This document shows positions 24,101-62,606 of a stretch of DNA of 64,000 nucleotides, piece by piece. The notes under the pieces were generated by a model. The model was not told where the DNA came from. It saw only the letters and a list, made by a program, of their open reading frames with translations, and searched no databases. How positions within the stretch are numbered: the stretch's first letter is position 1; each line of letters starts with the position of its first letter. The stretch is from Aquila chrysaetos chrysaetos (Eukaryota > Chordata > Aves > Accipitriformes > Accipitridae): contig NW_024470393.1 of the NCBI RefSeq assembly GCF_900496995.4, positions 62,001 to 126,000 on the forward strand, in the 5' to 3' direction. Position numbers and translations under genes: made by a program.

Positions 24101-27100
24101 CCCCCCCCATGCCAAAACCTACGTCCCCTCAGATATCAGGGAACCCCCAAATATCGGGGTGCCCCCCCTGCACCCCTTAACGGTGTTCCCCCCCCCGCAA
24201 AGTGAGCCGCTCGGGCGAGGATGAGTCGCAGGAGGACGTGCTGATGGATGAAGCTCCCTCCAACCTCAGCCAAGCTTCCACACTGCAGGCTAACCGGGAA
24301 GGTGAGTGTACCGGGGGGGGCCTCCAAGAATTTTGGGGGGCTTGGGGGGGGCCTGGGGGGGATACCGGGGTCCTACCTTCCCCCCTTTACCCCCCCCCCC
24401 CCCCCCGGCAAAGATTCCATGAACATCCTGGATCCCGAAGACGAGGAAGAGCACACGCAGGAGGAAGACAGCAGCGGCAGCAATGAGGATGAGGATGACA
24501 GCCAGGATGAGGAGGAGGAGGAAGAAGAGGAAGATGAAGATGATCAGGTGGGAGACCCGGACACCGGTGTGCCTCCTCGCCATGAGGGTGGAATGATGCT
24601 CCCATTTTGGGTCGGGGTGCCCCCACATTTTGGGTGAGGGGTTGACATTTGGGGTCAGGGTGCCCCCATTTGGGGTTGAGGGTGACATTTTGGGTCAGGG
24701 TGCCCCCATTTTGGGTCACGGTACCCTGTTTTGAGGTCAGTGTGCCCCCATTTTGGGTCGGGGGTGACATTTGGGGTCGGTTGCCCCTGTTTCAGGTCGG
24801 GGTACCCCCGTTTTGAGGTCAGGGTGCCCCCCTTTCAGCTTAGGGTGCCCTCATTTTGGGTCACGGGGTGCCCACTGACTGTCCCCCCCTCCCCGGGATT
24901 GTTCCCCTCAGGATGATGAGGAAGGGGAAGAAGGAGAGGAAGAGGAGGATGACGATGACGGCTCTGAGATGGAGCTGGATGAAGATTATCCCGACATGAA
25001 CGCCTCCCCCCTTGTCCGCTTCGAGCGCTTCGACCGCGACGATGACCTCATCATCGAGTTCGACAACATGTTCTCCAGCCCCAGTACGGACTTGGGGAGG
25101 GGGGTGCAAAAAAGGGGGGACATGGCGATTTGAGGGGGGCTGTGGGGTTCCCCCTTCGCCCCATGGGGTGGTGGGAAGGTGGGTGAGCCGTGGGCTGTCG
25201 TCTCCCTGTGGGTTGGGGGAGGCAAAGTGGGGTACACCCCCTTGACACCCCGTTTTGTCACCACCACTGGTGGTTAAAGGGTTCACGCCCCCAGCACCCC
25301 AATTCTGTCTTCCCGTGACGTTGGGGGGGGGTCGGAAAGGGGTTCACCCCCTTGACATCCCACTTTGTCACCTCCCTGGGGTTTCGGGGAGGTGATTAGG
25401 AAGGGGTTCACTGCCCCAGCACCCCAGTTTTTCATCTCCTTTGGCCTTGCAGTATCTGGGGGGGCAGGTCAGGAAAGAGTTTACACCTTACACCCCAATT
25501 CTTTCTGTCCCCATGACCTCGGGGGGGGGGTAAGAAGGGGTTCACCCCCCCGACACCGCAATTCCTCACCTCCCCATGCATCACACTATTACAGCGATAT
25601 CAAAAAGGTTCTTCCTCCCTCTCCTTGACACCCCATTTCTCCCCCTGTCCCATTTTTTTTCAGCCGATATCCCCCCATCCCCTGGGAACATCCCGGCCAG
25701 TCACCCCCTCCTGGTCCGTCACGCCGACCACGGTTCCCTGGGATTGGGAACCGGAGCCGCCACCACCCGCCTGGCTCAGGGTTTGGGGCGCAGCCAACGT
25801 ACCCTCCGGCAACTCACCGCCAACGCCGGTCACACCATCCACGTCCACTATCCCGGTGCTCGCCAGCCCAACCCCCCCCCTCATCCTTCAGAGGTCAGTA
25901 ACGACCCACCCCGGGGACCCCCCCGGACCCCCAGTGCTCCATTGTCCCTCCGGTGTGCCTCATTGTCCCCTAATTCATCCCTCAGTGTTCCCTCTGGGCC
26001 CTTGAGGCCCCCCCTCGGACCCCCGTGCACCCCCTTGGCCCTCCGTGGACCCCCCCCTGGGCCCCCCGGGACACTTGTGTCGTCCCCCCTCCTCCCTGGG
26101 GTCCCCCCACAATGTTCCCCTCCTCCCTGGGGTCCCCCCCGATGTCCCCCTCCTCTCTAATCCTCATGCCCCCCTCATCCTTGGGTTTCCCTTCCTCAAC
26201 GTCCCCCCTCCTCCCTGGTCTCCATGTCACCCCAGTGCCCCCCCCCCAGTGTCCCCCTTCCTCCTTGGTGTCCCCTTTCAATGTCCCCCTTCTCCCTGGT
26301 GTCCCCCCCTCCTCCCCGGTATCTCCCTCTTCCCCCGTGTCCCCTCCTCGGTGTCCCCCTCCTTCTTGCTGTCCCTCCTCCTTCCTGGTCCCCATGTCAC
26401 CTTCCTCCCTGGGGCGTCCGTCCGTGTGCGTGCGTCCCCCGAACTGACGATGTGTCGTGTCGTCCCCCCCCTGTCCCTGCAGGCTGCTGGGTCCCTCGGC
26501 GGCGGCCGACATCTTACAGCTGAGCAGCAGCCTGCCCTTGCAGAGCCGGGGCCGGGCCCGGCTCCTGGTGGGGAACGAGGACGTTCACATCATCGCCCGC
26601 TCCGACGACGAGCTCCTTGACGACTTCTTCCATGAGCAGGGCAGCGCCGGCAGCCAGGCAGGCGAGTGGGGGGGCAGGGCCTGCCAGGGGGGCGGGGTGG
26701 TGCACCAACTCAACCCATCCCAACCCAACTCAACCCAACTCAACCCAACCCAACTCAACCCAACCCATCCCGTCCCAACCCATCCCGTCCCAACCCATCC
26801 CGTCCCAGCCCAACCCGTCCCAGCCCAACCCGTCCCAGCCCAACCCGTCCCAACCCAACTCAACCCAACCCATCCCAACCCATCCCATCCCAACCCAACC
26901 CAACCCATCCCAACCCATCCCATCCCAACCCATCCCAACCCATCCCAACCCATCCCAACCCAACCCATCCCAACCCAACCCAACCCATCCCAACCCAACC
27001 CATCCCAACCCAACCCAACCCAACCCAACCCATCCCAACCCAACCCAACTCAACCCAACCCAACCGCCTGTAGGGATGGAAAGGAGAGGATGGGGCTGGA

Positions 27101-30100
27101 GAGAGGGGGAGGAGCCTGGAGTAAGGGGGTGGGGACTGAGAGGGGGGCGGTGCCTGAGAGGGGAGCAGAGTGGCACACCCACCCCCCCCCCCCAACCCAA
27201 CTCAACCCAACCCAACCCAACTCTACCCAAATGACTGTGGGGATGGAGAGAGGGGGAGGAGCCTGGAGGAAGGGGGTGGGGCCTAGGTGGGGTGGGTGGG
27301 GGCTGGGGGCGGGGACTGCAAGGGAGCAGGGACACACACATTCCCCAGTGGCTTTTGGGGAGGGGAGGAGCCTGGAGGGTGAAGGGGGAGGGGCCTGACT
27401 GGCAGAGGTGGGGCTTGGCTGGTAGACCCAGGCCCTGAAGTGGGGAAGGGGGGGGGGGGGGGGGGCTGAGACCAATTGGGCTGGGCGTGGCCTAGCCCAA
27501 ATCGGGGCGTGGCCTAGCCCAGGAGGCAAAAGCTTTTCCCCCCCCTCCCCGAATGCCTGGGTTCACTCTGTGCCCCCCCCCCCCCCGCTCCCCCCCCCCC
27601 CCCGCCCCCAGCAGGGACCCTCTCGAGCATCCCCACCGCCCTGACACGCTGGACGGAGGAGTGCAAGGTGCTGGACGCCGAGAGCATGCACGACTGCGTC
27701 TCGGGTGAGCCACCGTGTCCCCAACAACACCCCCCCCCCCCACTGTCACCCCAGTTTCCCCCCCCCCCAAAACCCCCCCCCCCACTGTCACCCCAGTTTT
27801 CCCCGCCCCAAACCCCCCCATCACCACTTCCCCCCTACCCCCAGTATCATCACCCACCCGTCCGATGACCCCTCCAGCGCCGTCACCCAGTGCTCTCAAC
27901 CTCCCAGCACCCCTCCCAACTTGTGGCCCCCCCCCCCCCCCCAAAATTTGTGTGCCCCCCCGCCCCGCAGTGGTGAAAGTTCCCATACTGGCGCGACTGG
28001 AAGCCCTGCGTGACGAGGAGCTGGACGAACGGCGGGAGAAACGCCGGCGGCAGGCGGCCGAGGAAGAAGCCAAAGGCACCGAACGCGGTCCCGAAGACAA
28101 GGACGGGTCTGACGCCCAGGTGAGGGGCACCCCAAACATCCTCCCCCCCCCCCCAGAAAAAAATAAAAACCGGGGGGGGGGGGGGTCCCTTCACCCCCCC
28201 GGCCTCAGTCACCTTCCCCTCTCCAACAGGATGCGGCATCCAAGGCCGCCACCGCCTCCACCGACGTCACCCCCCCAGGTAATCCCCCTCCTCCTGCCAC
28301 CTTCCTTAATTTTAGGGCCCCCCCCCAAACCCTAATGTACCCAGATGTGCCCCCCCCCCCCCCCTTACCCCCAAAATCCTCCCACACCCCTTTTCCCCCC
28401 CCCCCCTCCCCTTGACCTGGCACCCCGCGGGTTGAGGTAGTAGATTGTATAGTTGGAGGGTCACACCCCCGTCTCGGAGATAACTATACAGTCTACTGTC
28501 TTCCTCGCGGGGCGCGCGGCCGCCGCCGGACGCCTGGGTCCCCTATGGCACGGGGGGGGGCTGTTTAATTGAGGGGGGGGCTGGGGGGGGGGGGGGGCTC
28601 TGTAGCATCGCCTCCCCCCCCAGTATAGCCAGTGTTCAGTCAAAGGTTGATAAACGGGGGCGGATTTAGGGGAGTGGGGTGTCCCTTGCTTGTTGTTTAG
28701 GGGGTTGGGGGGGGGGGGTGGGGGTTTGGGGGGGGGGGTTGGGGGGGTTTTAGGGGGGTTTGGGGGGGGGTACGGGAGGGTGAGGTAGTTGGTTGGGGGG
28801 GGGGCAGGCAAGATGGGAGCCCCTAAGCGAGGTATTTCCCCCCCTCCTCAGGACCCCTCTTCTTGTTTTGGGGTGCAGCCAGATGCCTGGGTTCCCCCAA
28901 AGTGGGGGAGGGAGGTTTGGGGGGGGGGGGGGGCGCACTTCCGAATTCCTGGGTGTGTCCCCCCCTTCCCTGCTGCTGATCCCCATGTGTGTGTCCCCCC
29001 CACCGCCTCCCAGAACACAGCGGGACGACGGGAGAGACCCCCCCTCCCGGTCCCCACCGGACTTTGGTGATGCTGGAACCGACGCCGACCCCCCCAGATC
29101 CCCCACCGGGAGCCCCCCAAATTCCCGCTCGCCCCCCCCCAACCCCCTGAACATGAAGAGGGGGGGCCTGGACGACCCCCCCAAGATGCCGAAGCCACCC
29201 AAATGGAACTGTCACCCGCTCCCACCATCAGTAAGTCCTTATTTTTGAGGGGGGATCCCTCTAATTTTAGGGGATCTTCTCAGTTTGGGGGAGGTTTCTC
29301 AGTTGGGGGGGGGGTCTTCTCAGTTGGGGGGGGGGTCTCGCTAAATTTGAGGGGGCCCTATTAACGTCCCTTCCCCTCAGCGTCTCTGTCCCCGGAGCGA
29401 GCGGAAGACTCGGACGCGTTGACGGCAGTGAGCAGCCAACTGGAAGGTTCCCCCATGGATACCTCGAGTTTGGCTTCTTGTACCTTGGAAGAATCGGGGG
29501 GGGGCTCCCCCTCCCCCAACAGCCCCCCAAAATCCTCCCGGGACCCCCCAGGGACCCCCCCCCCCCCCCCGCCCCCCCCGATGCCGCTCAGCCCCCCGAC
29601 GATAGGTAAGAGTCCTCCCTTATCCCAAGACTCCCCCCCCTTACCCCAAGACCCCTGCTGTTTTTTTCCCTTTCCGTCCAAAGGGGATCACGGGTTTGGG
29701 GGTACCCCCCCCCCCCCCCGCCTCCTCCCACCCCACTGCTGACATCATACCTCTCTTCTCTGATGTCATCCCTCCCAAGCTCCCCCCCCGCCTCGTCCTC
29801 GGAAAGTTCGTCCACCCGGGATTCGGCCGTTGCCATTTCGGGAGCCGACTCGCGAGGGATTTTGGAGGAACCCCTGCCCTCCACCAGCAGCGAGGAAGAG
29901 GATCCCCTCGCCGGTCAGTGTCACCTTTGTCACCCCCCTTGTCACCCCCCTTGTCACCCCCCTTGTCCCCCCCCTCCCGGTGAGCCCCCCTACCCCCCCC
30001 CCGCCCCCCAACCTCGACGTAGCTCATGTCACCCGGGGGGGGGGTCCCCATGTCCGATGTCCCGCCACCCCCCGCCACCCCCCCAAGGGCTCAGCTTTGT

Positions 30101-33100
30101 CCCCAGGGGTGTCCCCTCATCCTCGGGGGTGTCCCCACATCCCCAGGGGGGGTCCCCGATGTGTGTGTCATCCCCCCCCCCCCCCCTTTTTCCCTAGGGA
30201 TCAGCCTCCCGGAGGGGGTGGACCCCTCGTTCCTGGCGGCGCTGCCGGACGACATCCGGCGGGAAGTGCTGCAGAACCAGCTGGGGATCCGCCCCCCCGC
30301 CCGGGCTCCGCCCACCCCCAGCCCCGCCCCCCCAGTGGTGGCCAATCCCGGCTTGACCGAGGTCAGCCCCGAGTTCCTGGCCGCCTTGCCTCCGGCCATT
30401 CAGGAGGAGGTGGGTGGGGCCTGGGGGGGTGGGGTTAGGGAGGGTGTGGCCTGAGGGGGTGGGGTTAAATGGGTGTGGCTTGCATTGGGGCAGGGCTTAG
30501 AAAGGGGGTGGGGTTAAAGGGGTGAGGCATGCACTGGGGGTGGAGCCTGAACAGGGGGTGGGGTTAAAGGGGTGAGGCATGCACTGGGGGTGGAGCCTGA
30601 ACGGGGGTGGGGTTAAAGGGGTGAGGCATGCACTGGGGGTGGAGCCTGAACAGGGGGTGGGGTTAAAGGGGTGAGGCATGCACTGGGGGTGGAGCTTAAG
30701 TAGGGGTGGGATTATGGGGGAGTGGCAAGTGTTGGGGTGTGGCTTATGCAGGGGGTGGGGTTAAAGGGGTGGGGCTTAGAAGATGGAGTGTAAAGGGTGG
30801 GGCTTAATTATGGGGGTCAGGTGGGTGGGGCTTGCATGGGGGCGTGGCCACATCTCCCGGGGGGGAGGAGCCTGGCTGGGATGGGTGTGCTCATGGCGGG
30901 GGCGGGGCCTGATGCTCATCGAGGGCTGCGCGGTGTCTTTTAACCCCATCACGCCCTGAACTCTGGGGGAGGCGTGGCCTCCGCGGGGGTGTGGCCACCC
31001 TGCGGGCGTGGCCTCCACGGGAGGGGGATGGCCCCCAGAAGGGGGCGTGTCTAACGGCAGGGCGGGGCAGGTGCTGGCGCAGCAGCGAGCGGAGCAGCAG
31101 CGTCGGGAGCTGGCGCAGGCGACGAGTTCGGATGCCCCCATGGATCCGGTGACCTTTATCCAAACGCTGCCCTCGGAACTGCGGCGTTCCGTGCTGGAGG
31201 ACATGGAGGACAGCGTCCTGGCCGTCATGCCTCCCGACATCGCCGCCGAGGCCCAGGCTCTCCGACGGGAACAGGAGGCCCGGCAACGGCAACTCATGCA
31301 CGAGAGGCTCTTCGGCCACTCCAGCACCTCCGCGCTCTCCGCCATACTCCGCAGCCCTGGTGAGGCAGCCCCCGCCCCGTATTCCTGTCCCCCCGCCCCG
31401 TATTCCTGTCCCCCCGCCCCGTATTCCTGTCCCCCCACCCCGTATTCCTGTCCCCCCGCCCCGTATTCCTGTCCCCCCGCCCCGTATTCCTGTCCCCAAC
31501 CTAGCACACGTGTCCTTTCTCCTCTTCTCCATTTTCTCCTGGCACCCCCCCGTCCTCTCCCAGCACCCCCCCCTCCTCTCCCAGCACCCCAATGCTCTCC
31601 TGACACCCCTTAGGTTTTCCCTGCACCTCCAATGCTCTCCTGACGCCCCTCATTGTTTTCTGACACCCCTCATTGTTTTCTGACACCCCTCATTGTTTTC
31701 TGACACCCCTCATTGTTTTCTGACACCCCTCATTGTTTTCTGACACCCCTCATTGTTTTCTGACACCCCTCATCGTTTTCTGACACACCTTATCGTTTTC
31801 TGACACCCTCAATGCTTTTCTAGCAACATTTCTCTTCCTCTGGCACCCCTAATTCTCTCTTGGCGCTCCCAGATTCTCTCCCAGCCCACCTATTTCTCAC
31901 CTGGCACCCCAAATCCTCTCCTGGCACCTCTAATGCTTTTCTGATATTCTCTGAATCTCTCCTGGCACCCCCAAATCCTCTCCTGGCACCTCTAGTGCTT
32001 TTCTGATACTCTCTTATCCTTTCCCAGTTCCCCTAATTCTCTTCTAGCACCCCTGATTCTCTCCTGGCAACCCCAGATTCTCTCCTGGCAACCCCAGATT
32101 CTCTCCTGGCACCTTTAATGCTTTTCTGATATTCTCTTGATCATTCCTAGCACCGCCAATCCTCTCCTGGTTCTCCTCATCCTTTTCCAGCCCCCTTAAT
32201 TCTCTTCTGGCACCCATAATTCTCACCTGGCACCCCCAAATCCTCTTGCGGCACCTCTAATGCTTTTCTGTTATCCTCTCAATCTCTTCTAGCACCCCTA
32301 ATTCTCCCCCAACACCCCTCTCACCTCCTCCTACCCCACCCTCATCTCACAAATCCCCCCCACTTCCCCTCATGCATCCCTCTTTTCTCACCGTATCCCC
32401 CTCCCCAACCCCACCAACCCCTCCTATGGCCCCCCCCAACCCTCTACACCCCCGCCACGTACGTCATGCCCCCCCTCCCCAAAAAAAAACCCCGATGCCG
32501 GTGTCTCCACAGCTTTCACCAGCCGGCTGAGCGGGAACCGTGGGGTGCAGTACACCCGCCTGGCCGTCCAGCGTGGCGGCACTTTCCCACATGGGGGGCA
32601 GCAGCAGCCACAGCAGGTACTTTTTTTTTGGGGGGGGGGGGGGGGGGTTCAAAAAAGGGAAGTTCTCCGCTTTTCTAATTTTTTAGGAGTGTAACTTAAT
32701 TTATAACGCACCCCCCCCAGACCTTCGGGGAGCAGCGTGGACAGCCTTTTACGTCTCCGCGGTCGTTTATTGTTGGATCACGAAGCTCTTTCCTGCCTCT
32801 TGGTGCTGCTTTTTGTCGACGAACCCAAACTCAACACCAGCCGCCTCCATCGCGTTCTCCGAAACCTTTGCTACCACGCTCCCACCCGAGGTTGGGTGGT
32901 CCGCAGCCTCCTCTCCATCCTCCAACGAAGCAGCGAGAGCGAGCTGTGCCTCGAAGCCCCTCGCGGACCCCCGATAGCCGAAGAAAGACCTCGAAGAGCG
33001 AGCGGAAGAACCGGTAGCGCGACCGGTGCAACCGTCGAACCTCGGGGTTTAGATTTATTACATCGCGTAGAAGCTCGAAGTTCCGGACAACTTTCTTGGC

Positions 33101-36100
33101 TTTCCGTTTCTATGGATGCGGCTTTGGGTTGTCGTACCAACATTTTCCAGATTCAACGAGTTCCGGGACGGAAACATACGGAAAAACACGCCGCTGCCGC
33201 CGGTTCCGCCGTTCACATCCATCCCCAGGCCGCCCCTGTCGTCTGCCGGCACGTCCTCGATACCCTCATCCAGCTGGCCAAGGTGGGGATGAGGGGGGGG
33301 GGCTTGGGGGGAGCTCCTTGATGGAGTTGGGGGTGATTGAGGGGGGCACTGGAGGAATTTGGGGGGCACTGGAGCATGTTAGGGGGTAACAGGGAGTTCC
33401 GTAATGGAGCTGGGGGTGATTTGGGGGGGGGCACTGAGGCACCTCGTGGGGTGTCTGGGGGGGGCTCCCCCAAAGCCACCAACACCAAATCACATCTTGG
33501 GGGGGGGGGGGGCTCCCTAATTGGGGTCCCCTCCCTAAACTTGGGGTCCCACTACAGGGACCCCCCCCCCAAAACCCATGCTGGGCACCAGGGCACGTCC
33601 GGGGGGGGGGGGAGGTGACATTAAGATGTCCCCCAACTTCTGGGGCTATATTTTTGGGGGGGGGGGGGGGTTACTAGCACCCCACTAACCCCCCCCAATA
33701 TTTCCCTGCCCCCCCCCCCCCAGGTCTTCCCCAGCCACTTCACCCAACAACGAGGCCGCGACCCGACGAACGAAGCAGAACGAGACCGCGGCCCCCCAAA
33801 ATCGGGGGGCAGCCCTTGTCCTCCCCAGCCCCCTCCTCAAACCCCTCCAGCTCCCCCTCCCCCACCCCCTCCTCCTCCTCCTCCTCCTCCTCCCCCTCCC
33901 CCTCCCCCAACCGGGAATCTTCCTCCCTCCCTCCCCCCCACCTCAGGCAATCTCTCGACCGATTTTTGGGACCTTTTAGTAAAATTGGATAATATGAACG
34001 TCAGCCGGAAAGGGAAAAGTTCGGCTAAAACGGGAACGGGAAGCGGAGGACCGGAACCGGAAACATCGGGATTGGGTTTAGAAGCGTCACCTTTGGGTCA
34101 ATTGATGAATATGTTATCCCACGGCGTTATCCGTCGGAGCGCGCTCCTGACGGAAAAGCTGCTCCGGCTCCTTTCCCTCATATCCATCGCTTTACCCGAA
34201 GGAGGGAAAGGGGGTGAAGGGGGGACACCTCAAAATGTCACCCCCGCCGCCACCGGCAGCAGTGGCAGCAGTGGCGGCGGTCCGGCGAGTCCGGCGACGC
34301 AAAGCGGGAATGTCGGGAACGCAACGGTGGCGGGAGGCGGCGGCGGAGCGGCTGGTGGTGAGTGTTTTTGGGGATATGGGGACACGGGGATGGGGACACG
34401 GGGATGGGGACAGGGATGGGCATGGGGATGGGGACAGGGATGGGGACAAGGACATGGGGATGGGGACACAGGGATGGGGATGGGGACACGGGGATGGGGA
34501 CGGGGGATGGGGACAAGGACATGGGGACGGGGACACAGGGATGGGGATGGGGACAGGGATGGGGACACGGGGATGGGGACGGGGACAAGGACATGGGGAT
34601 GGGGACACAGGGATGGGGACGTGGATGGGGACAAGGACATGGGGATGGGGACACAGGGATGGGGATGGGGACAAGGACACGGGGATGGGGACACAGGGAC
34701 GGGGATGGGGACATGGGGACGGGGACACAGGGATGGGGACAAGGACATGGGGATGGGGACACAGGGATGGGGACGGGGACAGGGATGGGGACACGGGGAT
34801 GGGGACACAGGGATGGGGACAAGGACATGGGGATGGGGACACAGGGATGGGGATGGGGATGGGGACAGGGATGGGGACACAGGGATGGGGACAAGGACAT
34901 GGGGATGGGGACACAGGGATGGGGATGGGGACGGGGATGGGGACAAGGACATGGGGACGGGGACACAGGGATGGGGACGGGGACAGGGATGGGGACACAG
35001 GGATGTGGATGGGGACAGGGATGGGGACAAGGACATGGGGATGGGGGACACAGGGATGGGGACAGGGACAGGGATGGGGACAGGGACATGGGGATGGGGA
35101 CACAGGGATAGGGATGGGGACGGGGACGGGGATGGGGACAAGGACACGGGGATGGGGACACAGGGATGGGGATGGGGACATGGATGGGGACAAGGACACG
35201 GGGATGGGGACACAGGGATGGGGACGGGGACAGGGATGGGGACAAGGACATGGGGACGGGGACACAGGGATGGGGATGGGGACATGGGGACAAGGACAGG
35301 GACACAGGTGGAGACAAGGACAAAGGACGGGGCTGGGGCCAGGGACGAGGACAGAGCTGGCATCGGGTGGTCGAGGGCAAATCCAGGGGGGCGGTGGCAT
35401 TTCCCCCCCCCCCCCGCCACCGTCCCCACGCGTCCCCCGTTGTCCCCAAGCCAAGAGCGCCAAGTCCCCGGGGCCGAAGGGACCCGAGGCAGGGGGCGGC
35501 GGTGGCAGCGCCGACCCCCGGATGGCGGCGACGGGCTTGACTGAGAGCCAGCTCCAACTCTCCGTCGAGGTAAGCCGGGTCAGGGATCCCCCAAATTATT
35601 TGGGGGGGGCGGGGGGGGGGGGCCGTTGATGTCCCCCAAGCGTCCCCAACCCTCCGGCAACGTCCCCTAGGTGCTGACGTCGCACTCGTGCTCGGAAGAA
35701 GGGTTGGAGGACGCGGCCAACGTCCTCCTGCAGCTTTCGCGGGGGGACGCCGCCACCCGCGACACCGTCCTGCGCCTTTTGCTCAGCGGCGCCCGGCAGT
35801 TGGGGGCCACCCTCTGTCGACAGATCGGTGAGGGACCCGGGGGGGGGGGGGGGGGACACGACACGGGCGCTCGCTGAGGTCATCGTCGGCTCCTGATGAT
35901 GTCACGGGTCTTTTTTTTTTTTTTTTTTTCCGGTGTAGGGACCTTGCTGGCGGAATTACGGGAATACAACTTGGAACAGCAACGACGGGCGCAGAGCGAG
36001 GCTCCTTCTCCCGAAGGGCTCCCCGAGGAGCAGCCCCCCAGCGCCAAGCTCAAGGGGAAGATGCAGAGTCGGTGAGCTCCTGCCTGCCGTTAACTCTGGT

Positions 36101-39100: not shown

Positions 39101-42100
39101 CACAGGGGCTCAGCCCTCTCCAACATCCCATCCCGAGCGGGGCGACATCCCTGCAGCCTCGGGGTGCCCCCCACATCTTCGGGGTCCCCCCCCCGCTCCC
39201 CGCAACACCCCCGTATATCGTTGTTCCGTGTGTCCCGACTCCTCCGCAGTGCTACAGCCAGCGGTGGAGGCTTTTTTCCTGGTGCACGCCACGGAGCGGG
39301 AGAGCAAGCCGCCGGTGCGGGACACGCGGGAGAGCCAGCTGGCCCACATCAAGGACGAGCCCCCCCCTTTGTCACCCGCCCCCCTCACCCCCGCCACCCC
39401 CTCTTCCCTTGACCCCTTCTTTTCCCGAGAACCTTCCTCCATGCACATCTCGGCCAGCCTGCCCCCCGACACCCAGAAATTCCTACGCTTCGCCGGTGAG
39501 AGGGGCGGGAACGGGGGGTTTGGGGGGGATTTCGGGGGGTTCTGCAGGGAGCCTGGGGCTTAGGAAGGGGTTTTGGGGGGTTCTGCAGGGGATTTGGGGG
39601 GCTCTGTGGGGACCCTGCGGCGGTGGGAGGGGATTTGGGGGAGACCTGGGGCTTGAGAATGGGTTTTGGAGGGCTCTGAAGGGAGCCTGGAGCTTTGGGA
39701 GGGGGTTTTGGGGGGACTGGGGGGGCTCCCCAAGGGACTTTGGGGGCCCCCGGGCAGGATTTGGGGTGAACGTTTTAAAGTTTGCCGGGGGAACATGGGG
39801 CAGGGGGGAGCGGGTGAAGTTTGGGGTGCCCAGACATGGCAGAGGAAGCCAAATCGTACCTCCCCAGCAGTTCTAGATCAAGACAGGGGGGTCCCCACAT
39901 TTCGGGGACTCCCCCAAACCCTTCCCCCTGCCCCCCCCCCCCCAGAGACCCACCGGACGGTGCTGAACCAAATCCTGCGTCAATCCACCACCCACTTGGC
40001 CGACGGTCCCTTCGCCGTCCTGGTCGACTACATCCGCGTCCTCGACTTCGACGTCAAGCGCAAGTACGTGGATGGAGGGGTTTAATTTTTAGGGGGGGGG
40101 GGGGGGTGTCCCCTCAATCCCTGACACCCCCTCCCCGCCGCCCCCCCCCAGGTATTTCCGACAGGAACTAGAGCGGCTGGACGAGGGGTTGCGGAAGGAG
40201 GACATGGCCGTCCACGTCCGTCGCGACCACGTCTTTGAGGATTCCTACCGCGAGCTGCACCGCAAATCCCCTGAGGAGATGAAGAACCGCCTGTGAGACC
40301 CCCCCCAAATCCCCTCAGACCCCCCACAAATCCCCTCAGGCCCCCCCCAACCTGGCACCAGCGTCCCCCTGGGTTGGGGACAGGCGGGGAAGGGACCGGG
40401 GTTGGGTTTTAGGGTGATGGGGCGGAGCATGAGGGAGATTCACACCCCCCCCCCTCCTTAATGGGGTGTAGTTGGGGATTTGGGGGGGATCAGGGTTGGG
40501 TTTAGGGGTGTGTGGGGACCCCCCAGGACTGTGTTAGGGTTTGGGGGGGACGACACATGTGACCAGGGATGGGTTTGGGGTTACGTGAGGTCCTTGGGGA
40601 CCAGGTTTTGCGGTTCCCTGGGACTGTTACTAGGGGACTGGGGGGGCCCCAGGTGTGGGTTTGGAGTTACAGGAGGTCCTTGGGTCTCCCAGCCCCCCCA
40701 GAAACACCCCTAACCCCCCCAAAACACCCCCCAGACCCCCAAATCACCCCCCCAAAACACCCCCCAGGCCCACTAAACACCCTCCCAGCCCCCCAAAACA
40801 CCCCCCCAAAACACCCACTAGCCCCCCTGAAACACCCCTCAGCCCCTCAGAACACCCCCAGACCCCCTGGAACATGCCCTAAAACAGCCCCCAGGTCCAC
40901 TAAACACCCTCCCAGCCCCCCAAAACACCCCCTAGCCCCCCCTGAAACATCCCCCAGGCCTCTCAAACACCCCCTAGCCCCTCCAAACACCCCCCAACCC
41001 CCCCAAAACACTCCCCCTACGTGTCTCTTCTCCCCCTCCAGGTACATCGTGTTCGAGGGCGAGGAGGGCCAGGACGCGGGGGGTCTCCTGCGGGAGTGGT
41101 ACATGATCATCTCGCGGGAGATGTTCAACCCCATGTACGCCCTGTTCCGTACCTCGCCGGGTGACAGGGTCACCTACACCATCAACCCCTCCTCCCACTG
41201 CAACCCCAACCACCTCAGCTATTTTAAGTTCGTGGGGCGCATCGTGGCCAAGGCCGTCTACGACAACCGTCTCCTCGAGTGTTATTTCACCCGTTCCTTC
41301 TATAAGCACATCCTGGGCAAGTCTGTCCGGTAAGAAGACGGCCAGGGGTAGCGTGGGGCGGTGAACAGCTTTCTTGGGGTGTCGAATCACCATATGGGGT
41401 GTTGGAACACCTTCACAGGGTGTTGAACCTCCTGGTGGGGGGTTAAATCCATCCTTGGGGTGTTGAACCACCCTCATGAGGTTGCAGCAACACTCCCAGG
41501 GGGTGTTGAATGCCCCTCATGGGATGTTGGAACCTCTTGTTGGGGTGTTGCACCACCCTCGTGGGGTGTTGAACCTCCTGGTGGGGTGTTGAATGCCCCT
41601 CATGGGGTGTTGGAACCTCTTGTTGGGGTGTTGCACCACCCTCGTGGGGTGTTGAATGCCCCTCATGGGGTGTTGAACCTCCTGATGGGGTGTTGAATGC
41701 CCCTCATGGGGTGTTGGAACCTCTTGTTGGGGTGTTGCCACCACCCTCGTGGGGTGTTGAACCTCCTGGTGGGGTGTTGAATGCCCCTCATGGGGTGTTG
41801 GAACCTCTTGTTGGGGTGTTGCACCACCCTCGTGGGGTGTTGAATGCCCCTCATGGGGTGTTGAACCTCCTGATGGGGTGTTGAATGCCCCTCATGGGGT
41901 GTTGGAACCTCTTGTTGGGGTGTTGCACCACCCTCGTGGGGTGTTGAACCTCCTGGTGGGGTGTTGAATGCCCCTCATGGGGTGTTGGAACCTCTTGTTG
42001 GGGTGTTGCACCACCCTCGTGGGGTGTTGAACCTCCTGGTGGGGTGTTGAATGCCCCTCATGGGGTGTTGGAACCTCTTGTTGGGGTGTTGCACCACCCT

Positions 42101-44445
42101 CGTGGGGTGTTGAACCTCCTGGTGGGGTGTTGAATGCCCCTCATGGGGTGTTGGAACCTCTTGTTGGGGTGTTGCACCACCCTCGTGGGGTGTTGAACCT
42201 CCTGGTGGGGTGTTGAATGCCCCTCATGGGGTGTTGGAACCTCTTGTTGGGGTGTTGCACCACCCTCGTGGGGTGTTGAACCTCCTGGTGGGGTGTTGAA
42301 TGCCCCTCATGGGGTGTTGGAACCTCTTGTTGGGGTGTTGCACCACCCTCGTGGGGTGTTGAACCTCCTGGTGGGGTGTTGAATGCTCCTCATGGGGTGG
42401 TGAACCACCCTCACAGGGTGTAGAACACCCCCATGGGGGTGTTGGACCTCCCGGTGAGGTGTTGCAACCCCCTCACGGGCTGTTGAACCCTCCTCAAAGG
42501 GTGTTGAACCACCCTCAGGGGTTGTTCAACCTCCTGGTGGGGTGCTGAGCCCCCCCCTCAAAGAGTGTTGAACCCCCTTTTTGGGGTACAGCCCCTCCCC
42601 TCAGGTTGTTGAACCCCTCGATGGGGTCTTAAACCTCCCGGTGGGGTGTTGAACCCCCGTTTTGGGGTGCCAAACCCCCTTTTTGGGGCGCTGAACCCCC
42701 TCATGCTGTGCCGAACCCCACGAGTGAGGTGCTGAGCCCCCCCCTCGTGGCGTCTCTGACCCCCCCCCCCCCCCCCCCCCCAACCTGGGCGCAGGTACAC
42801 GGACATGGAGAGCGAGGACTACCACTTCTACCAGGGCCTGGTGTACCTGCTGGAGAACGACGTCTCCACCCTGGGCTACGACCTCACCTTCAGCACCGAG
42901 GTACGTGTCACGCCACCCCCCCCCAAACCCCGGGGAACCCCCCCCAGGGGCACAGGTACCCCCAAAAGACGAGGCATGGGGATGTCCATGTCATGTGTCC
43001 CCCCCCACCAAATCTCCCTGGGGAAGGGTCCTTCTGTTTTGGGGGTGTCACTTGTGTCCTGGGGGGGGTCCCCAAGTCCCAGGAGTGTCCCTTGTGTCTT
43101 TGGGGGTGTCCCCTCTGTCTTCGGGGTGTCCTGGTTTGGGGGTGTCCCCTGTGCCCCAGGGTTGTCCCCCCCTCATTTGGGGTGTCCCCTCTGCCCCAGG
43201 GTTGTCCTCTGTGTCCTTGGGGGTGTCCCCTCTGTCCTGGGGGTGTCCTGGTTTGGGGGTGTCCCCTGTGCCCCAGGGTTGTCCCCCCCTCATTTGGGGT
43301 GTCCTCTGTGTCCTTGGGGGTGTCCCCTCTGTCCTGGGGGTGTCCCGGTTTGGGGGTGTCCCCTCTGTCCTGGGGGTGTCTCCCCTCACCCTGCCCACCT
43401 TGAGAGCGTCCCTTCTGTCCTGGAGGGGAGGGGGTGTCCCCTCATTCCCCACCCCCCCTTCTCTAGGGGTGTCCCCTCTCTTTTAGGGGTGTCCCCTGTG
43501 CCCCAGGGGTACGTGTGACACCCCCCCCCCGCCGCCTCGCCCCCCTCTTCCCCGCCCCCAGGTGCAGGAGTTCGGGGTGTGCGAGGTGCGGGACCTGAAG
43601 CCCAACGGAGCCAACGTGCTGGTGACGGAGGAGAACAAGAAGGAGTACGTCCACCTCGTCTGCCAGATGCGCATGACCGGTGAGCGCCGGCGGGTTTGGG
43701 GGTAGCGGGGGGGGCGTCCTCAACAACCCCCCCCTGACGCCTCCCCACCTTCAGGAGCCATCCGGAAGCAACTAGCCGCCTTTTTGGAGGGTTTCTACGA
43801 GATCATCCCCAAACGCCTCATCTCCATTTTTACGGAGCAAGAGCTGGAGCTTCTCATCTCGGGGCTGCCCACCATCGACATCGACGACCTCAAGGCCAAC
43901 ACCGAGTACCACAAATACCAGGGCAACTCCATCCAGGTGGGGTTTTAAACACCACCACCCCCCCCCCCCAAAAAAAATCCTAATTTTGGGGGTTTTGTTA
44001 AGCGCTGATGATCGTTTCCTACCTCAGATCCAGTGGTTCTGGCGAGCGTTGAGATCTTTCGACCAAGCGGACCGAGCCAAATTCCTGCAGTTTGTGACGG
44101 GAACCTCCAAGGTGCCGCTGCAGGGTTTCGCCGCCCTGGAAGGAATGAACGGCATTCAGAAATTCCAGATTCACCGCGACGACCGGTCTACCGACCGACT
44201 GCCCTCCGCTCACACCTGGTATGGGGCTGGGGCAGGGGGGGGACGTTTTTTGAGGGGGGGGGGGGGACAGTGACATAAGGGCCACCAACCCGGTGACGTT
44301 TTTGTGTGTTTTTCCCCCCCCCCCCAAAAAAAAAAAAAAAAGCTTTAACCAGCTGGACCTGCCGGCGTACGAGAGCTACGAGAAGCTGCGGCACATGTTG
44401 CTGCTCGCCATCCAGGAGTGCTCCGAGGGCTTCGGGCTGGCGTAG
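310..44445 (+). CDS. HUWE1: HUWE1, giant HECT E3 ubiquitin ligase (5' partial, about 80 coding exons)
   Basis: HUWE1 (Mule/ARF-BP1) transfers ubiquitin to p53, MCL1, histones, MYC and other substrates in the nucleus and cytosol. The first exon seen starts with [15 protein letters not shown], equal to human residue 49, so the start codon and first exons are upstream of the window. From there the exons follow human HUWE1 in order without a missing block: N-terminal armadillo-like region, UBA, UIM, WWE, a long acidic linker, UBM motifs and the C-terminal HECT domain ending in CSEGFGLA and a TAG at 44443-44445. Nearly all introns are GT-AG with matching phases. Human HUWE1 spans roughly 150 kb; here 80 exons fit in 44 kb. 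About seven one-base frame breaks occur, mainly in C or G runs, and are probably sequence errors because everything around them is conserved. Exon coordinates are given in the block entries below. Confidence 0.97.
926..2203 (+). repeat. Pyrimidine-rich minisatellite in HUWE1 intron
   Basis: Almost the whole intron is a degenerate tandem array of about 20-40 bp units. From 960 to 1700 the motif is ggggtcccccaacactgtcc; from 1700 to 2060 it is ctgtcacccctcttgtgtcc. The youngest copies, around 1960-2040, are nearly identical. No exon is seen in it. Confidence 0.85.
4023..4151 (+). CDS. HUWE1: HUWE1 in-frame cassette exon (43 residues)
   Basis: The exon is 129 nt, has AG and GT flanks, and starts and ends in phase 1, so it can be included or skipped without changing frame. 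It encodes [17 protein letters not shown] followed by an Ala/Ser/Thr-rich stretch. Human HUWE1 has a matching serine-rich segment ([13 protein letters not shown]) between METDM and VQCIPQRA. Only the first dozen residues are conserved; the rest has drifted. Alternative splicing is inferred from the phase, not shown by the sequence. Confidence 0.75.
6170..7154 (+). repeat. HUWE1 intron with AT-rich block and 23-bp tandem repeat
   Basis: 6170-6660 is G-rich with recurring GGGGACCCCAAAAAG units. 6690-6990 is an unusual AT-rich island in which ATTTTRATT recurs every 20-25 bp. 6990-7115 holds about six near-perfect copies of a 23-bp unit containing cccttcccagattttgattc. The AT-rich part looks like a decayed version of the same array. 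Confidence 0.8.
7155..13162 (+). CDS. HUWE1: HUWE1 exon block 2: armadillo-like region continued, up to the UBA exon
   Basis: Exons: 7155-7400, 7493-7626, 8167-8267, 9195-9414, 9991-10208, 11884-12006, 12087-12318, 12932-13162. The translation matches human, for example [81 protein letters not shown] and [20 protein letters not shown]. Two frame breaks occur, both +1: at the end of exon 9195-9414, where the conserved junction LLS|ASSRLG would need one C fewer near 9411-9413, and in the 10-C run at 10176-10185, where nine would give [12 protein letters not shown]. Both flanks are otherwise perfectly conserved, so sequence error is the simplest reading. Confidence 0.93.
7627..8166 (+). repeat. 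G-rich tandem repeats in HUWE1 intron
   Basis: Irregular units of about 20-30 bp built on gaggaggatttggggggg and aggatctgggggg fill the intron to about 8040. A less repetitive stretch precedes the acceptor at 8165-8166. Many G runs make it prone to G-quadruplex formation on the coding strand. No exon is seen. Confidence 0.75.
8268..9194 (+). repeat. G-rich tandem repeats in HUWE1 intron
   Basis: About 850 bp of degenerate units around gggtctttaggggaaggggg, with almost no cytosine runs on the + strand. The array spans nearly the full intron. No exon or RNA is seen in it. Confidence 0.8.
9415..9990 (+). repeat. Two-level minisatellite (about 31 bp, paired) in HUWE1 intron
   Basis: From about 9675 to 9920 a unit containing ctcgggtgctggatgtgggg alternates with ctcgggtgctggattttggg. 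This makes a higher-order unit of roughly 62 bp present about four times. The first part of the intron (9415-9660) is G-rich with no clear period. Confidence 0.8.
10209..11883 (+). repeat. Large G-rich minisatellite (about 31-bp unit) in HUWE1 intron
   Basis: From about 10220 to 11560 there are some 40 copies of a unit built from ggtggagctgaggggaaggg and gtggggctgggg, differing mostly in G-run length. The coding strand is almost pure purine plus T. Because stops are rare in the unit, several frames on both strands stay open for hundreds of codons; these are not genes. 11570-11883 is unique GC-rich sequence leading to the acceptor. Confidence 0.9.
12319..12931 (+). repeat. G-rich degenerate tandem repeats in HUWE1 intron
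   Basis: From about 12340 to 12740, units of about 20-25 bp around ggggacttggggggcacaga and ggggtgcagaggggatttgg. The last 190 bp before the acceptor at 12930-12931 are non-repetitive. No exon is seen. Confidence 0.75.
13163..13908 (+). repeat. T/C-rich intron with a long-period repeat before the UBA exon
   Basis: The intron is strongly pyrimidine-rich. A block containing TTGGATYTTYCCTAACAA recurs near 13270, 13460, 13655 and in weaker form near 13785, suggesting an old tandem repeat with a period close to 190 bp. No exon is seen in it. Confidence 0.6.
13909..14222 (+). CDS. HUWE1: HUWE1 exon block 3: UBA and UIM domains
   Basis: Exon 13909-14031 encodes the UBA domain, [20 protein letters not shown] through [16 protein letters not shown]. 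Its MGF loop and closing leucines are the ubiquitin-binding surface of UBA folds. Exon 14127-14222 encodes [20 protein letters not shown], a ubiquitin-interacting motif with the acidic lead-in and the conserved Ala-x-x-x-Ser core. Both exons are in frame and differ from human at only a few positions. The two modules let HUWE1 hold ubiquitin or ubiquitylated partners. Confidence 0.96.
14223..15226 (+). repeat. Pyrimidine-rich tandem repeats in HUWE1 intron
   Basis: Nearly 1 kb of degenerate units of about 25 bp built on gaccccattttgtgcccc, with a 14-C run near 14563. Single-strand composition is C/T-rich on the coding strand, the opposite of the arrays at 7.6-11.5 kb. No exon is seen. Confidence 0.85.
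15227..16254 (+). CDS. HUWE1: HUWE1 exon block 4: charged helix and helical region before WWE
   Basis: Exons: 15227-15496, 15573-15725, 15960-16087, 16173-16254. The first begins with a highly charged Arg/Glu stretch ([19 protein letters not shown]) that should form a long single helix or coiled coil. It continues with [19 protein letters not shown]. Later exons give [38 protein letters not shown] and [19 protein letters not shown]. All junction phases close and conservation with human is high. No separate enzymatic role is known for this segment. Confidence 0.94.
16255..17032 (+). repeat. G-rich tandem repeats in HUWE1 intron
   Basis: Irregular 25-30 bp units around gggtcctggggagggacacg run from about 16260 to 16890. 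The last 140 bp are unique and lead to the acceptor at 17031-17032. No exon is seen. Confidence 0.75.
17033..17209 (+). CDS. HUWE1: HUWE1 WWE domain exon
   Basis: One 177-nt exon encodes [20 protein letters not shown] through [13 protein letters not shown]. The two tryptophans, the [11 protein letters not shown] turn and the TVQF strand are hallmarks of WWE domains, which in several ligases bind poly-ADP-ribose. The exon is in frame and almost identical to human HUWE1, with SAWKSG replaced by AAWRAG. Confidence 0.96.
17301..22621 (+). CDS. HUWE1: HUWE1 exon block 5: post-WWE helical region
   Basis: Exons: 17301-17451, 17935-18329, 18724-18919, 19926-20093, 20532-20674, 20939-21005, 21363-21571, 21803-22014, 22442-22621. 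Conserved anchors are [108 protein letters not shown] and [20 protein letters not shown]. Between MLTLLRAPR and LRACVS the chain (exons 17301-17451 and 17935 onward) is a Gly/Glu/Ser-rich linker with no match to the human linker. The donor at 20675 (GTCAGT) is weak but is fixed by phase. No frame break is seen. Confidence 0.93.
17452..17934 (+). repeat. G-rich HUWE1 intron with a duplicated segment
   Basis: Runs of G dominate. Two copies of a block containing gtccctgcaccccca, about 90 bp apart (near 17615 and 17706), show a local duplication. No exon is seen. Confidence 0.6.
18330..18723 (+). repeat. G-rich short repeats in HUWE1 intron
   Basis: Units around gggtctaggggacatgggaa, about 24 bp, repeat between 18430 and 18560. 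The remainder is unique GC-rich sequence. No exon is seen. Confidence 0.6.
18920..19925 (+). repeat. Nested tandem repeats (about 33 bp within longer units) in HUWE1 intron
   Basis: Units around gtgcctgtggctccaaaatg fill 18980-19450. A longer block containing ccctatacagggtgacaac recurs near 19510, 19635 and 19845 with variants of the short unit between. No exon is seen. Confidence 0.8.
20094..20531 (+). repeat. G-rich HUWE1 intron with weak repeats
   Basis: After a C run near 20110 the intron is G-rich, with a loose 30-60 bp repetition of aattggggtgcccccag between about 20290 and 20430. No exon is seen. Confidence 0.5.
21006..21362 (+). repeat. C-rich minisatellite in HUWE1 intron
   Basis: About ten units of 30 bp on the pattern gtccccaagccccccgatgtcc-like (key parts CCCCGAGCCCC and TGTCCCC) span about 21030-21340, up to the acceptor at 21361-21362. 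Confidence 0.8.
22015..22441 (+). repeat. Minisatellite of about 37 bp in HUWE1 intron
   Basis: From about 22090 to 22370, units around gttgagatgtcctccgtggg recur about eight times with drift. No exon is seen. Confidence 0.8.
22622..23118 (+). repeat. G/T-rich minisatellite in HUWE1 intron
   Basis: Units built on cttgaggggtcgtggtgggt and ttgtgggggtcattggggtt repeat from about 22655 to 23060, with a longer higher-order unit near 120 bp. No exon is seen. Confidence 0.8.
23119..25083 (+). CDS. HUWE1: HUWE1 exon block 6: acidic linker region
   Basis: Exons: 23119-23285, 23771-23916, 24018-24093, 24203-24301, 24414-24547, 24912-25083. Conserved anchors are [57 protein letters not shown] and [20 protein letters not shown]. 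Exons 24414-24547 and 24912 onward encode a run of about 60 mostly Asp/Glu residues, which matches the long acidic tract of mammalian HUWE1. All phases close. Confidence 0.94.
23286..23770 (+). repeat. C/T-rich HUWE1 intron
   Basis: Pyrimidine-rich throughout, with a loose 25-30 bp repetition of CCCATCTCTCCT-like motifs. It ends with an A run before the acceptor at 23769-23770. No exon is seen. Confidence 0.6.
24548..24911 (+). repeat. 21-bp-type minisatellite in HUWE1 intron
   Basis: Units around gggtgcccccattttgggtc repeat about 14 times between 24590 and 24870. No exon is seen. Confidence 0.85.
25084..25663 (+). repeat. Long-period tandem repeat (about 85 bp) in HUWE1 intron
   Basis: Blocks containing GGGGTTCACCCCCTTGACACC and TTTGTCACCTCC recur about five times between 25200 and 25570. 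The end of the intron is T-rich before the acceptor at 25662-25663. Confidence 0.7.
25664..28278 (+). CDS. HUWE1: HUWE1 exon block 7: conserved linker after the acidic tract
   Basis: Exons: 25664-25893, 26483-26661, 27615-27704, 27971-28119, 28230-28278. Anchors are [73 protein letters not shown] and [17 protein letters not shown] +1 frame break lies in the 9-C run at 25872-25880; eight Cs would restore human-like NPPLILQRLLG. The intron after 26661 starts with GC rather than GT, and the acceptor choice at 27613-27614 is set by the conserved [10 protein letters not shown] reading. Confidence 0.9.
25894..26482 (+). repeat. C/T-rich minisatellite in HUWE1 intron
   Basis: Irregular units of about 20-25 bp around ctccctggtgtccccc fill about 26080-26420. 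No exon is seen. Confidence 0.75.
26662..27614 (+). repeat. Pentanucleotide (CCCAA/CCCAT)n array inside a GC-AG intron of HUWE1
   Basis: 26703-27065 is an almost pure 5-bp microsatellite of CAACC and CATCC units, with a second short block at 27193-27232. Between and after them are G-rich units of about 30 bp around ggggaggagcctggag. Long C/G homopolymers near 27440-27600 precede the acceptor. The unit is TTGGG on the other strand; it is not the vertebrate telomere TTAGGG. Confidence 0.9.
28279..29013 (+). other. HUWE1 intron hosting let-7f-2, otherwise G/C homopolymer-rich
   Basis: Apart from the let-7 hairpin at 28426-28510 the intron is made of C runs (28320-28410) and G runs (28540-28800 and 28918-28935). 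The human intron at this place carries let-7f-2 and then miR-98. No second hairpin is seen here. Confidence 0.8.
28426..28510 (+). ncRNA. let-7f-2: let-7f-2 microRNA precursor in HUWE1 intron
   Basis: The 5p arm at 28433-28454 begins tgaggtagtagattgtat and matches mature let-7f over its 22 nt. The 3p arm at about 28484-28505 begins ctatacagtctactgtc, matching let-7f-2-3p. The loop keeps the human let-7f-2 signature (GGGTCA, then ACCCC, TCT and GGAGATAA). The basal stem pairs cgcgg (28426-28430) with the bases around 28504-28510. It lies on the HUWE1 sense strand in an intron, as in mammals, and would be processed from the HUWE1 transcript. let-7 represses LIN28, RAS, HMGA2 and similar targets. 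Confidence 0.95.
29014..29913 (+). CDS. HUWE1: HUWE1 exon block 8: poorly conserved Pro/Ser linker
   Basis: Exons: 29014-29230, 29381-29605, 29780-29913. The first exon is recognisable only at its end, where [13 protein letters not shown] matches human [13 protein letters not shown]. The second contains [20 protein letters not shown] and [13 protein letters not shown]. The third contains [20 protein letters not shown] and [17 protein letters not shown]. The frame that gives these matches requires one C fewer in the C run at about 29131-29140 and one fewer in the long C tract at about 29555-29580; with that, PPDDSSPPASS lines up with human PPEDSSPPASS. The 5' limit of the first exon is the least certain in the gene. 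Confidence 0.8.
30198..31359 (+). CDS. HUWE1: HUWE1 exon block 9: ubiquitin-binding motifs (UBM)
   Basis: Exons: 30198-30409 and 31071-31359. They encode three related segments: [40 protein letters not shown] and [20 protein letters not shown], each with the Leu-Pro core typical of UBMs. They are followed by [20 protein letters not shown], a fourth similar segment, and a basic helix [17 protein letters not shown]. Conservation with human is very high, and the frame is continuous. These motifs bind ubiquitin around its Leu8 patch in the families where they were defined. Confidence 0.95.
30410..31070 (+). repeat. 51-bp minisatellite in HUWE1 intron
   Basis: Between about 30495 and 30700 a unit of about 51 bp containing ggggttaaaggggtgaggca and tgcactgggggtggagcctg is repeated about four times almost exactly. 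The rest is G-rich unique sequence up to the acceptor at 31069-31070. Confidence 0.9.
31360..32511 (+). repeat. Two distinct young minisatellites and decayed relatives in HUWE1 intron
   Basis: 31366-31498 holds six copies of a 21-bp unit, gccccgtattcctgtccccc plus one base. 31640-31800 holds about eight near-identical 20-bp units, cattgttttctgacacccct. 31840-32300 is a drifting array with ctcctggcacc and atgcttttctgat motifs that looks like an older expansion of the second type. No exon is seen. Confidence 0.9.
32512..34357 (+). CDS. HUWE1: HUWE1 exon block 10: C-terminal helical region
   Basis: Exons: 32512-32616, 32721-33282, 33724-34357. Anchors are [106 protein letters not shown] and [19 protein letters not shown] +1 frame break lies in the first exon: five instead of six Gs at 32593-32598 would give [11 protein letters not shown] as in human. 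Exon 33724-34357 replaces the human Ser/Cys-rich linker with a run of about 20 prolines and ends in a Gly/Ala/Ser-rich tail. Confidence 0.93.
33283..33723 (+). repeat. G-rich HUWE1 intron with weak repeats
   Basis: G runs dominate, with a loose repeat of GGGGGCACTGGAG and AGTTGGGGGTGAT-like motifs at 33300-33440. No exon is seen. Confidence 0.5.
34358..35450 (+). repeat. Hexanucleotide-based array (GGGGAT/GGGACA)n in HUWE1 intron
   Basis: From about 34375 to 35330 the coding strand is almost only GGGGAT, GGGACA and AAGGACAT hexamers in higher-order units of about 42-60 bp. The array has no stop in several frames on either strand, so the HUWE1 frame entering from exon 33724-34357 stays open through the whole array, reading Gly/Asp/Met/Thr/Trp-rich. 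Only the last 110 bp are unique. Confidence 0.92.
35451..38778 (+). CDS. HUWE1: HUWE1 exon block 11: helical region before HECT
   Basis: Exons: 35451-35569, 35671-35827, 35939-36071, 36825-37027, 37172-37299, 38428-38524, 38628-38778. Anchors are SGL-like [120 protein letters not shown] and [18 protein letters not shown] +1 frame break lies in the 8-C run at 38665-38672; seven Cs give [13 protein letters not shown] as in human. The phase arithmetic across 38524/38628/38778 independently requires that one base. Confidence 0.93.
36072..36824 (+). repeat. 41-bp minisatellite and decayed array in HUWE1 intron
   Basis: 36090-36590 is a drifting array of CTGTTAACTCTTGCCCCT-like units. 36590-36790 holds about five near-identical 41-bp units containing gttaacccttgcccctacca. 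The array resembles an old repeat with a recent local re-expansion at its 3' end. Confidence 0.85.
37300..38427 (+). repeat. 1-kb polypyrimidine tract (CTT/CCT) in HUWE1 intron
   Basis: From 37312 to about 38260 the coding strand is nearly all C and T: 9-bp cttcctcct units at 37320-37425, then cctcctcctcatcgc units, then a less regular tract. Mirror-repeat character makes it a candidate for triplex (H-DNA) formation. The long Leu/Ser/Pro- or Arg/Glu-rich open frames across it are compositional only. Confidence 0.9.
38779..39249 (+). repeat. HUWE1 intron with a diverged internal duplication
   Basis: A block containing gacatccctgcagcctcggg recurs near 38920 (as aacatccctgcagcctcggg) and 39143, with related ACCCCCAAGGTGTCCC sequence upstream of each copy. 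This points to an old duplication of about 200 bp. No exon is seen. Confidence 0.65.
39250..44445 (+). CDS. HUWE1: HUWE1 exon block 12: HECT catalytic domain and stop
   Basis: Exons: 39250-39495, 39946-40063, 40152-40292, 41042-41329, 42795-42900, 43562-43679, 43755-43936, 44028-44218, 44343-44445. The N-lobe begins around [20 protein letters not shown] and includes [20 protein letters not shown], which contacts E2 in HECT enzymes. The C-lobe has [15 protein letters not shown] and the active site [20 protein letters not shown]. The catalytic Cys codon TGC is split by the last intron: TG at 44217-44218 and C at 44343. The chain ends CSEGFGLA. Identity to human is near complete and all phases close. 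Confidence 0.98.
39496..39945 (+). repeat. G-rich tandem repeats in HUWE1 intron
   Basis: Units of about 60 bp around ggagcctggggcttaggaag and ggggttttggggggttctg recur four to five times between 39500 and 39720. No exon is seen. Confidence 0.7.
40293..41041 (+). repeat. C-rich tandem repeats in HUWE1 intron
   Basis: 40480-40690 has two diverged copies of a block with ttggggttacgtgaggtcctt. 40690-41010 is a C-rich array of 12-30 bp units with aaacaccccccag. No exon is seen. Confidence 0.75.
41330..42794 (+). repeat. 83-bp higher-order minisatellite in the HUWE1 HECT region
   Basis: The basic unit is 20-21 bp, starting GTTG and ending GGGGT. Four variants in fixed order (gttgaacctcctggtggggt, then forms with gaatgcccctcat, ggaacctcttgtt and caccaccctcgt) make an 83-bp unit present about ten times from 41490 to 42390. 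Copies are nearly identical, so the expansion is recent. Decayed units continue to about 42720. A long C run precedes the acceptor at 42793-42794. Confidence 0.95.
42901..43561 (+). repeat. Minisatellite in HUWE1 HECT-region intron
   Basis: From about 43060 to 43510, units around gggtgtcccctctgtcctgg, about 22-27 bp, recur some 15 times, with a longer unit near 110 bp duplicated around 43130-43300. No exon is seen. Confidence 0.85.

Positions 44446-59237: not shown

Positions 59238-62606
<3,369 letters not shown>

Follow-up and report, generated by a model that had tools for sequence, protein, structure and literature searches.

A probable let-7f-2 ortholog in a HUWE1 intron of Aquila chrysaetos chrysaetos, with a candidate relic of miR-98 downstream

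A hairpin on the forward strand, at 28427-28508, is the avian ortholog of let-7f-2, with the processing and function proposed below; we give this reading a probability of roughly 0.88. The identity of the hairpin, its place and strand, its fold and the conservation of its arms are shown here, and the remainder we infer. The window, i.e. the whole 64-kb stretch of DNA that was analysed, extends from base 62001 to base 126000 of its contig, which is 176,708 bases long.

The let-7f-2 hairpin and its host intron

The Rfam let-7 model (RF00027) matches 28427-28508 on the forward strand with a score of 75.2 bits, compared to a gathering score of 53.5 (E-value of 5.1e-14). The alignment covers model positions 1-84 of 84 and thus a full-length hairpin, which confirms the sequence-only reading that an intact let-7 hairpin lies at 28426..28510. 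No other match of any Rfam family exceeds its cut-off in the 64-kb window. When positions 26000-31000 were searched with E-values up to 5, the other 34 of the 36 matches were all below cut-off and mostly located in G/C-rich stretches. An antisense precursor was considered and rejected: mir-3596, on the minus strand of the hairpin, scores 55.7 bits, below its cut-off of 96, and mirrors the let-7 match.

The 5p arm (28433-28454) contains the let-7 seed (TGAGGTAGTAG...) and is identical to mature let-7f. This exact sequence is present in one copy in the window, both strands being searched. The 3′ part of the terminal loop holds GGAG (28476-28479), the LIN28-binding motif of pre-let-7. The 3p arm has a 19-nt core (28484-28502) identical to nucleotides 1-19 of human let-7f-2-3p in a table of PMC3940920, where let-7a-3p differs at one of these 19 positions. 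All three elements are on the forward strand. Folding of 28400-28530, which had been proposed as a check of the hairpin, yields a stable structure (MFE of -61.6 kcal/mol, z value of -3.85), and none of 200 shuffled sequences folds as well. The mean pairing probability of the 5p/3p stem is 0.902 with each of the flanks used (30, 60, 100, 200 and 300 nt). In the base-pair table, the lower stem on the forward strand pairs 28423-28431 with 28504-28512 through 9 pairs, including one G-U, and the predicted fold leaves bases 28432-28433 unpaired at the putative Drosha site.

The hairpin is located in a HUWE1 intron. The exon upstream (28230-28278, forward strand) is 49 nt long and ends in phase 1, its splice sites being read from the sequence. 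Alignment of this exon and the coding sequence before it to human HUWE1 covers residues about 2661-2727 (E-value of 7.6e-12), the exon corresponding to residues near 2727. The host intron (28279-29013, forward strand) would be 735 nt long, from a GT at 28279-28280 to a putative acceptor AG at 29012-29013. Three-frame translation places a downstream exon at 29014-29230 on the same strand, its start following from this acceptor, and the next exon starts in frame. Both downstream exons have counterparts in human HUWE1. The earlier proposal that the host is HUWE1, on the same strand as in mammals, is therefore supported on both sides of the hairpin. HECT pieces are found further downstream of the hairpin on the forward strand (40563-41330 and 43776-44270), followed by PFKFB-type exons on the minus strand and HSD17B10-type exons on the plus strand. 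Pfam, with E-values up to 0.01, returned no family for 5 of the 10 reading frames tested.

Given the putative acceptor and phase, the reading frame of 29014-29230 must change within about 29071-29148, an interval that contains a C9 run (29132-29140). The frame change is either an assembly homopolymer error or real, and it calls for caution about the base accuracy of the contig. Small indels in the assembly are thus possible, the contig being rich in homopolymers and this exon, about 0.7 kb from the hairpin, requiring a frame change in an interval that includes the C9 run.

The start of a MAGE-domain gene was also observed at 50340-50726 (plus strand), with MAGE-G1/NSMCE3 as best match (E-value of 1.7e-05). 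It stands between a GNL-type GTPase exon (47117-47551), which weakly matches GNL2 (E-value of 0.00093), and the PFKFB-type gene on the minus strand. In human, MAGED2 and TRO lie between GNL3L and PFKFB1. The MAGE-domain gene may mark the ancestral site of the mammalian MAGE-D genes.

Identity, conservation and proposed function

Among 12 human let-7 hairpins, let-7f-2 gives the top score (59.0, with 72 of 83 aligned positions identical), followed by let-7a-1 (55.0, 68 of 79). Since let-7a-1 is nearly as close by whole-hairpin identity, it is chiefly the 3p core and the host gene that justify the f-2 name. The 3p core was searched for in the assembly (1,233,704,830 bases in 144 contigs). Its single exact match in these 1.23 Gb is its own locus. 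One mismatch adds 5 places, 3 of them let-7 loci, and two mismatches add 18, which is the chance level, since a control with the pattern written backwards and up to two mismatches returned 48 places versus 24. The 3p core, the best human hairpin score and the single exact genome match together support the identification as let-7f-2 made in the sequence-only reading. In the same assembly, an 88-Mb contig carries one match above cut-off to mir-2954 (98.4 versus 96 bits), a bird-specific family, which supports the avian origin assumed in the sequence-only reading.

Since all let-7 precursors are similar, a retrocopy or local duplicate of a different let-7 locus, if recent, could mimic an ortholog. 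At least 9 let-7 matches, all above the Rfam cut-off, are present in the assembly, 28427-28508 included, which leaves at least 8 possible sources. However, the best-scoring of the other 8 hairpins listed, a let-7a-1-like copy on contig C20, is identical at just 68 of 81 positions, and the hairpin at 28427-28508 is therefore not a recent copy of any of these 8. Its host gene and strand are moreover those of human let-7f-2 and its 3p core is of the f-2 type. We regard a recent copy as very improbable.

Conservation was assessed by comparing this one bird genome with a human let-7f-2 hairpin of which the 3p arm alone was checked against print. None of the 41 arm positions differs, compared to 11 of 42 positions in the loop and lower stem (Fisher p value of 0.0005). 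These 11 differences comprise 9 AT-to-GC, 1 GC-to-AT and 1 A-to-T substitution, and are accompanied by one inserted base. The differences that raise GC content are thus confined to the loop and lower stem, with none in the arms. The loop accounts for 5 substitutions in 28 aligned positions and the inserted base, and the outer stem for 6 of 14 positions. It had been claimed that both arms and the loop match mammalian let-7f-2, and that conservation of the 3p arm and loop argues for active selection. The arms do match and are kept better than the rest of the hairpin, but the loop is conserved rather than identical. At position 28464 the window agrees with human let-7a-1, whereas the let-7a-1-like copy of the bird itself has T, as does human let-7f-2. 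As this position illustrates, the human comparison alone does not orient the changes.

The contig provides a background for these counts. The GC content of the window is 0.62, and that of 11 other 10-kb pieces of the contig ranges from 0.53 to 0.67. Coverage by Tandem Repeats Finder is 0.21 in the window, with a mean of 0.28 over the 11 other pieces, and falls to 0.12 in 28279-29386. By comparison, 49 other loci of the genome, out of 58 returned by four genome searches and some of them overlapping, have a mean GC content of 0.39 and a mean repeat coverage of 0.004. The hairpin could owe its intact look to incomplete decay and be an unprocessed relic, a reading in line with the changed outer stem and with the apparent loss of the neighbouring miR-98. 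On a contig so much richer in GC and repeats than those loci, however, the arms are unchanged and the lower stem keeps its 9 pairs. Decay of this kind appears unlikely.

The hairpin at 28427-28508 is probably an orthologous and functional let-7f-2, as judged from sequence. From knowledge of the let-7 family, it would be transcribed together with HUWE1 and excised from the intron by Drosha/DGCR8. The resulting pre-let-7f-2 would be exported and then diced into a let-7f 5p guide and a locus-specific 3p strand, and its loop GGAG may expose it to LIN28 control. The product would then repress let-7 targets. Every step of this scheme, from transcription and processing to LIN28 binding and target repression, is extrapolated from the let-7 family. 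Wherever HUWE1 is expressed, a let-7f 5p guide from its intron would thus contribute to the overall dose of let-7 repression. In development, the dose of let-7 acts as a central switch.

miR-98 in the host intron

In mammals the cluster of let-7f-2 includes mir-98. Human HUWE1 lies on the minus strand, so that let-7f-2 precedes miR-98 in the direction of transcription. A table in PMC5133852 places miR-98 at 53556223-53556341 and let-7f-2 at 53557192-53557274, both within HUWE1. No intact mir-98 was found downstream in the host intron of the eagle, the window containing one let-7 family match. A search of the whole assembly for the miR-98 5p arm gave no place with 0-1 mismatches. With 2-3 mismatches the arm occurs at 25 places (13 for the control), and all 4 two-mismatch places read as let-7a 5p. 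As miR-98 is not intact in the intron and no 5p match with 0-1 mismatches is present in the assembly, the cluster appears here to be reduced to one member, a point that the sequence-only reading did not raise.

Similarity and position point to a candidate relic of miR-98 at 28777-28826 (forward strand), in which a let-7-like 5p start (28781-28795) leads into sequence that resembles a loop. The sequence TGAGGTAGTTGGTTG at 28781 is one mismatch away from the let-7a 5p start and two from miR-98. It lies on the same strand, 348 nt 3′ of the let-7f-2 5p start, and the strand and order, let-7f-2 then fragment, are those of human let-7f-2 and miR-98. The fragment could also be a chance match in G-rich sequence, miR-98 having left no trace in the intron. 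In eight 4-Mb simulations, the let-7a criterion (one mismatch) was reached 0 times in each, the miR-98 criterion (two mismatches) 0-2 times per simulation (at most 1.7e-4 per 335 nt), and exact TGAGGTAGT 0-7 times (at most 5.9e-4 per 335 nt). These counts speak against chance, but the criteria were chosen post hoc, the site having already been seen. A let-7a match with at most one mismatch was likewise obtained in 0 of 400 simulated 2.5-kb regions.

Local alignments are less clear-cut. The fragment aligns to miR-98 with a score of 18.5, which 10 of 1000 nulls attain, or 4 of 1000 when the nulls are trained on a different set. It aligns better to human let-7b (20.5, reached by 2 of 1000 nulls), and the name miR-98 therefore rests on position. 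Against 9 let-7 hairpins of the same genome, the best score is a weak 16.5, equalled by 49 of 1000 simulated introns. Rfam, run on 28740-28880 with E-values up to 10, returned 32 matches, none of them let-7 and all below cut-off, mostly G/C-rich. The full 22-nt miR-98 5p arm has no match within 3 mismatches at 28777-28826. A 3p remnant was sought and rejected, the best local score of 6.0 (TTTCCC) being reached by 122 of 1000 simulations. Apart from the miR-98 alignment scores, these results favour a chance match. An origin by local duplication of the let-7f-2 of the window found no support (score of 12.0, reached by 200 of 1000 and 187 of 1000 nulls). Weighing this mixed evidence, we consider a chance match possible but somewhat doubtful, and we lean towards 28777-28826 being a candidate relic of miR-98, on position more than on sequence.

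The broader scenario has about an even chance of being right: birds would have kept let-7f-2 and lost miR-98 by decay in a fast-changing GC-rich intron where a relic is still visible. If so, the absence of miR-98 in birds would be a real lineage loss and any absence of let-7f-2 from older bird assemblies an assembly artefact, two opposite causes of absence 350 nt apart. Kept let-7f-2 and missing miR-98 form a natural case of selective retention and loss within an intron of a GC- and repeat-rich bird contig.

Other let-7-like sequences were observed in the genome. On contig C24, a let-7 match (positions 1501-1588 of locus L007) is paired with a copy about 200 nt upstream. The 5p arm of the first copy, TGAGGTAGTAGATTGAATAGTT, is that of let-7k, and the second copy has a let-7a-type 5p arm with its own 3p arm. 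To our knowledge, a cluster of the C24 type is missing from mammals. On the minus strand of contig C14 (8463238-8463259, L051), TGAGGTAATAATTTGTATAGTT is three mismatches from miR-98. This site is not among the let-7 matches listed for the assembly, and its surroundings fold only partly as a hairpin (MFE of -20.2). It is either a decayed let-7-like copy or a chance occurrence.

Bird assemblies and known systems

A let-7f-2 copy is expected in birds, and recent assemblies may already annotate one. Bird let-7 gene counts rest on assemblies, some of them without HUWE1. What is new here is a documented bird copy, a 3p tag with a single genome match and evidence on miR-98. The locus-specific 3p core offers an exact tag for reads of this locus in existing bird small-RNA data. 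The location of let-7f-2 within HUWE1 is already known in mammals (for human, PMC5133852) and axolotl (PMC7710800). The sequence-only reading suggested that bird miRNA catalogues may lack this let-7 copy. On this point, in the open-access literature we found nothing on chicken let-7f-2 with HUWE1, nothing linking MirGeneDB, birds, let-7 and missing GC-rich microRNAs, and nothing on let-7/mir-98 paralogs, genome duplication and chicken. The bird names (gga/tgu/apl) of mir-98 and let-7f-2 matched that literature through gga-let-7f-3p only. The available part of PMC10359484 (ncOrtho) describes miRNA families missing in birds through multiple independent losses, let-7 being unnamed in its main text. 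PMC7710800 gives miR-98 as common in tetrapods except birds, following miRBase v21. As far as their accessible text goes, mir-98 is absent from PMC7931589, and HUWE1 figures in PMC8851675 solely as a teleost gene pair.

A table of PMC5470226, which to our reading lists genes that chicken RNA-seq recovered, has HUWE1 in its row 'Predicted absent in birds'. This supports the earlier view that the HUWE1 region is GC-rich and easily missed. The GC- and repeat-rich contig also resembles the dot-chromosome introns of PMC12954441, which reports intron 'stuttering' in birds and, exceptionally, in gerbil genes. Within the window, a HUWE1 intron contains a long and imperfect repeat (34300-35540), open in several frames, that is similar to these 'stuttering' introns.

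The eagle locus shares with human let-7f-2 (HUWE1 intron, Xp11.22) the host gene, the strand, the 5p arm, the first 19 nt of the 3p arm and the overall fold. It differs in its GC-richer loop and lower stem, in which the 11 substituted positions and the inserted base are found, and, unlike the human cluster, it has no intact miR-98 partner. Its host intron, with the putative acceptor, is 735 nt long versus 2,461 in human, taking the column in PMC2635472 as intron length. Axolotl let-7f-2, in huwe1 intron 57, is likewise without an associated mir-98 (PMC7710800). That salamander copy comes from a transcript assembly, whereas the eagle copy is known from genomic sequence. A miR-98 relic goes unmentioned in the available part of the axolotl report, while the eagle has a candidate one. 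Finally, the other let-7 clusters of the eagle genome, on contigs C20, C17 and C24, likewise consist of let-7 precursors, and their arms are of the let-7 type. The fragment at 28777-28826 occupies the position of the second copy in these clusters, but their second copies, unlike the fragment, exceed the Rfam cut-off. The spacing between first and second 5p starts is 442 nt on C20, 875 nt on C17 and 348 nt in the HUWE1 intron.
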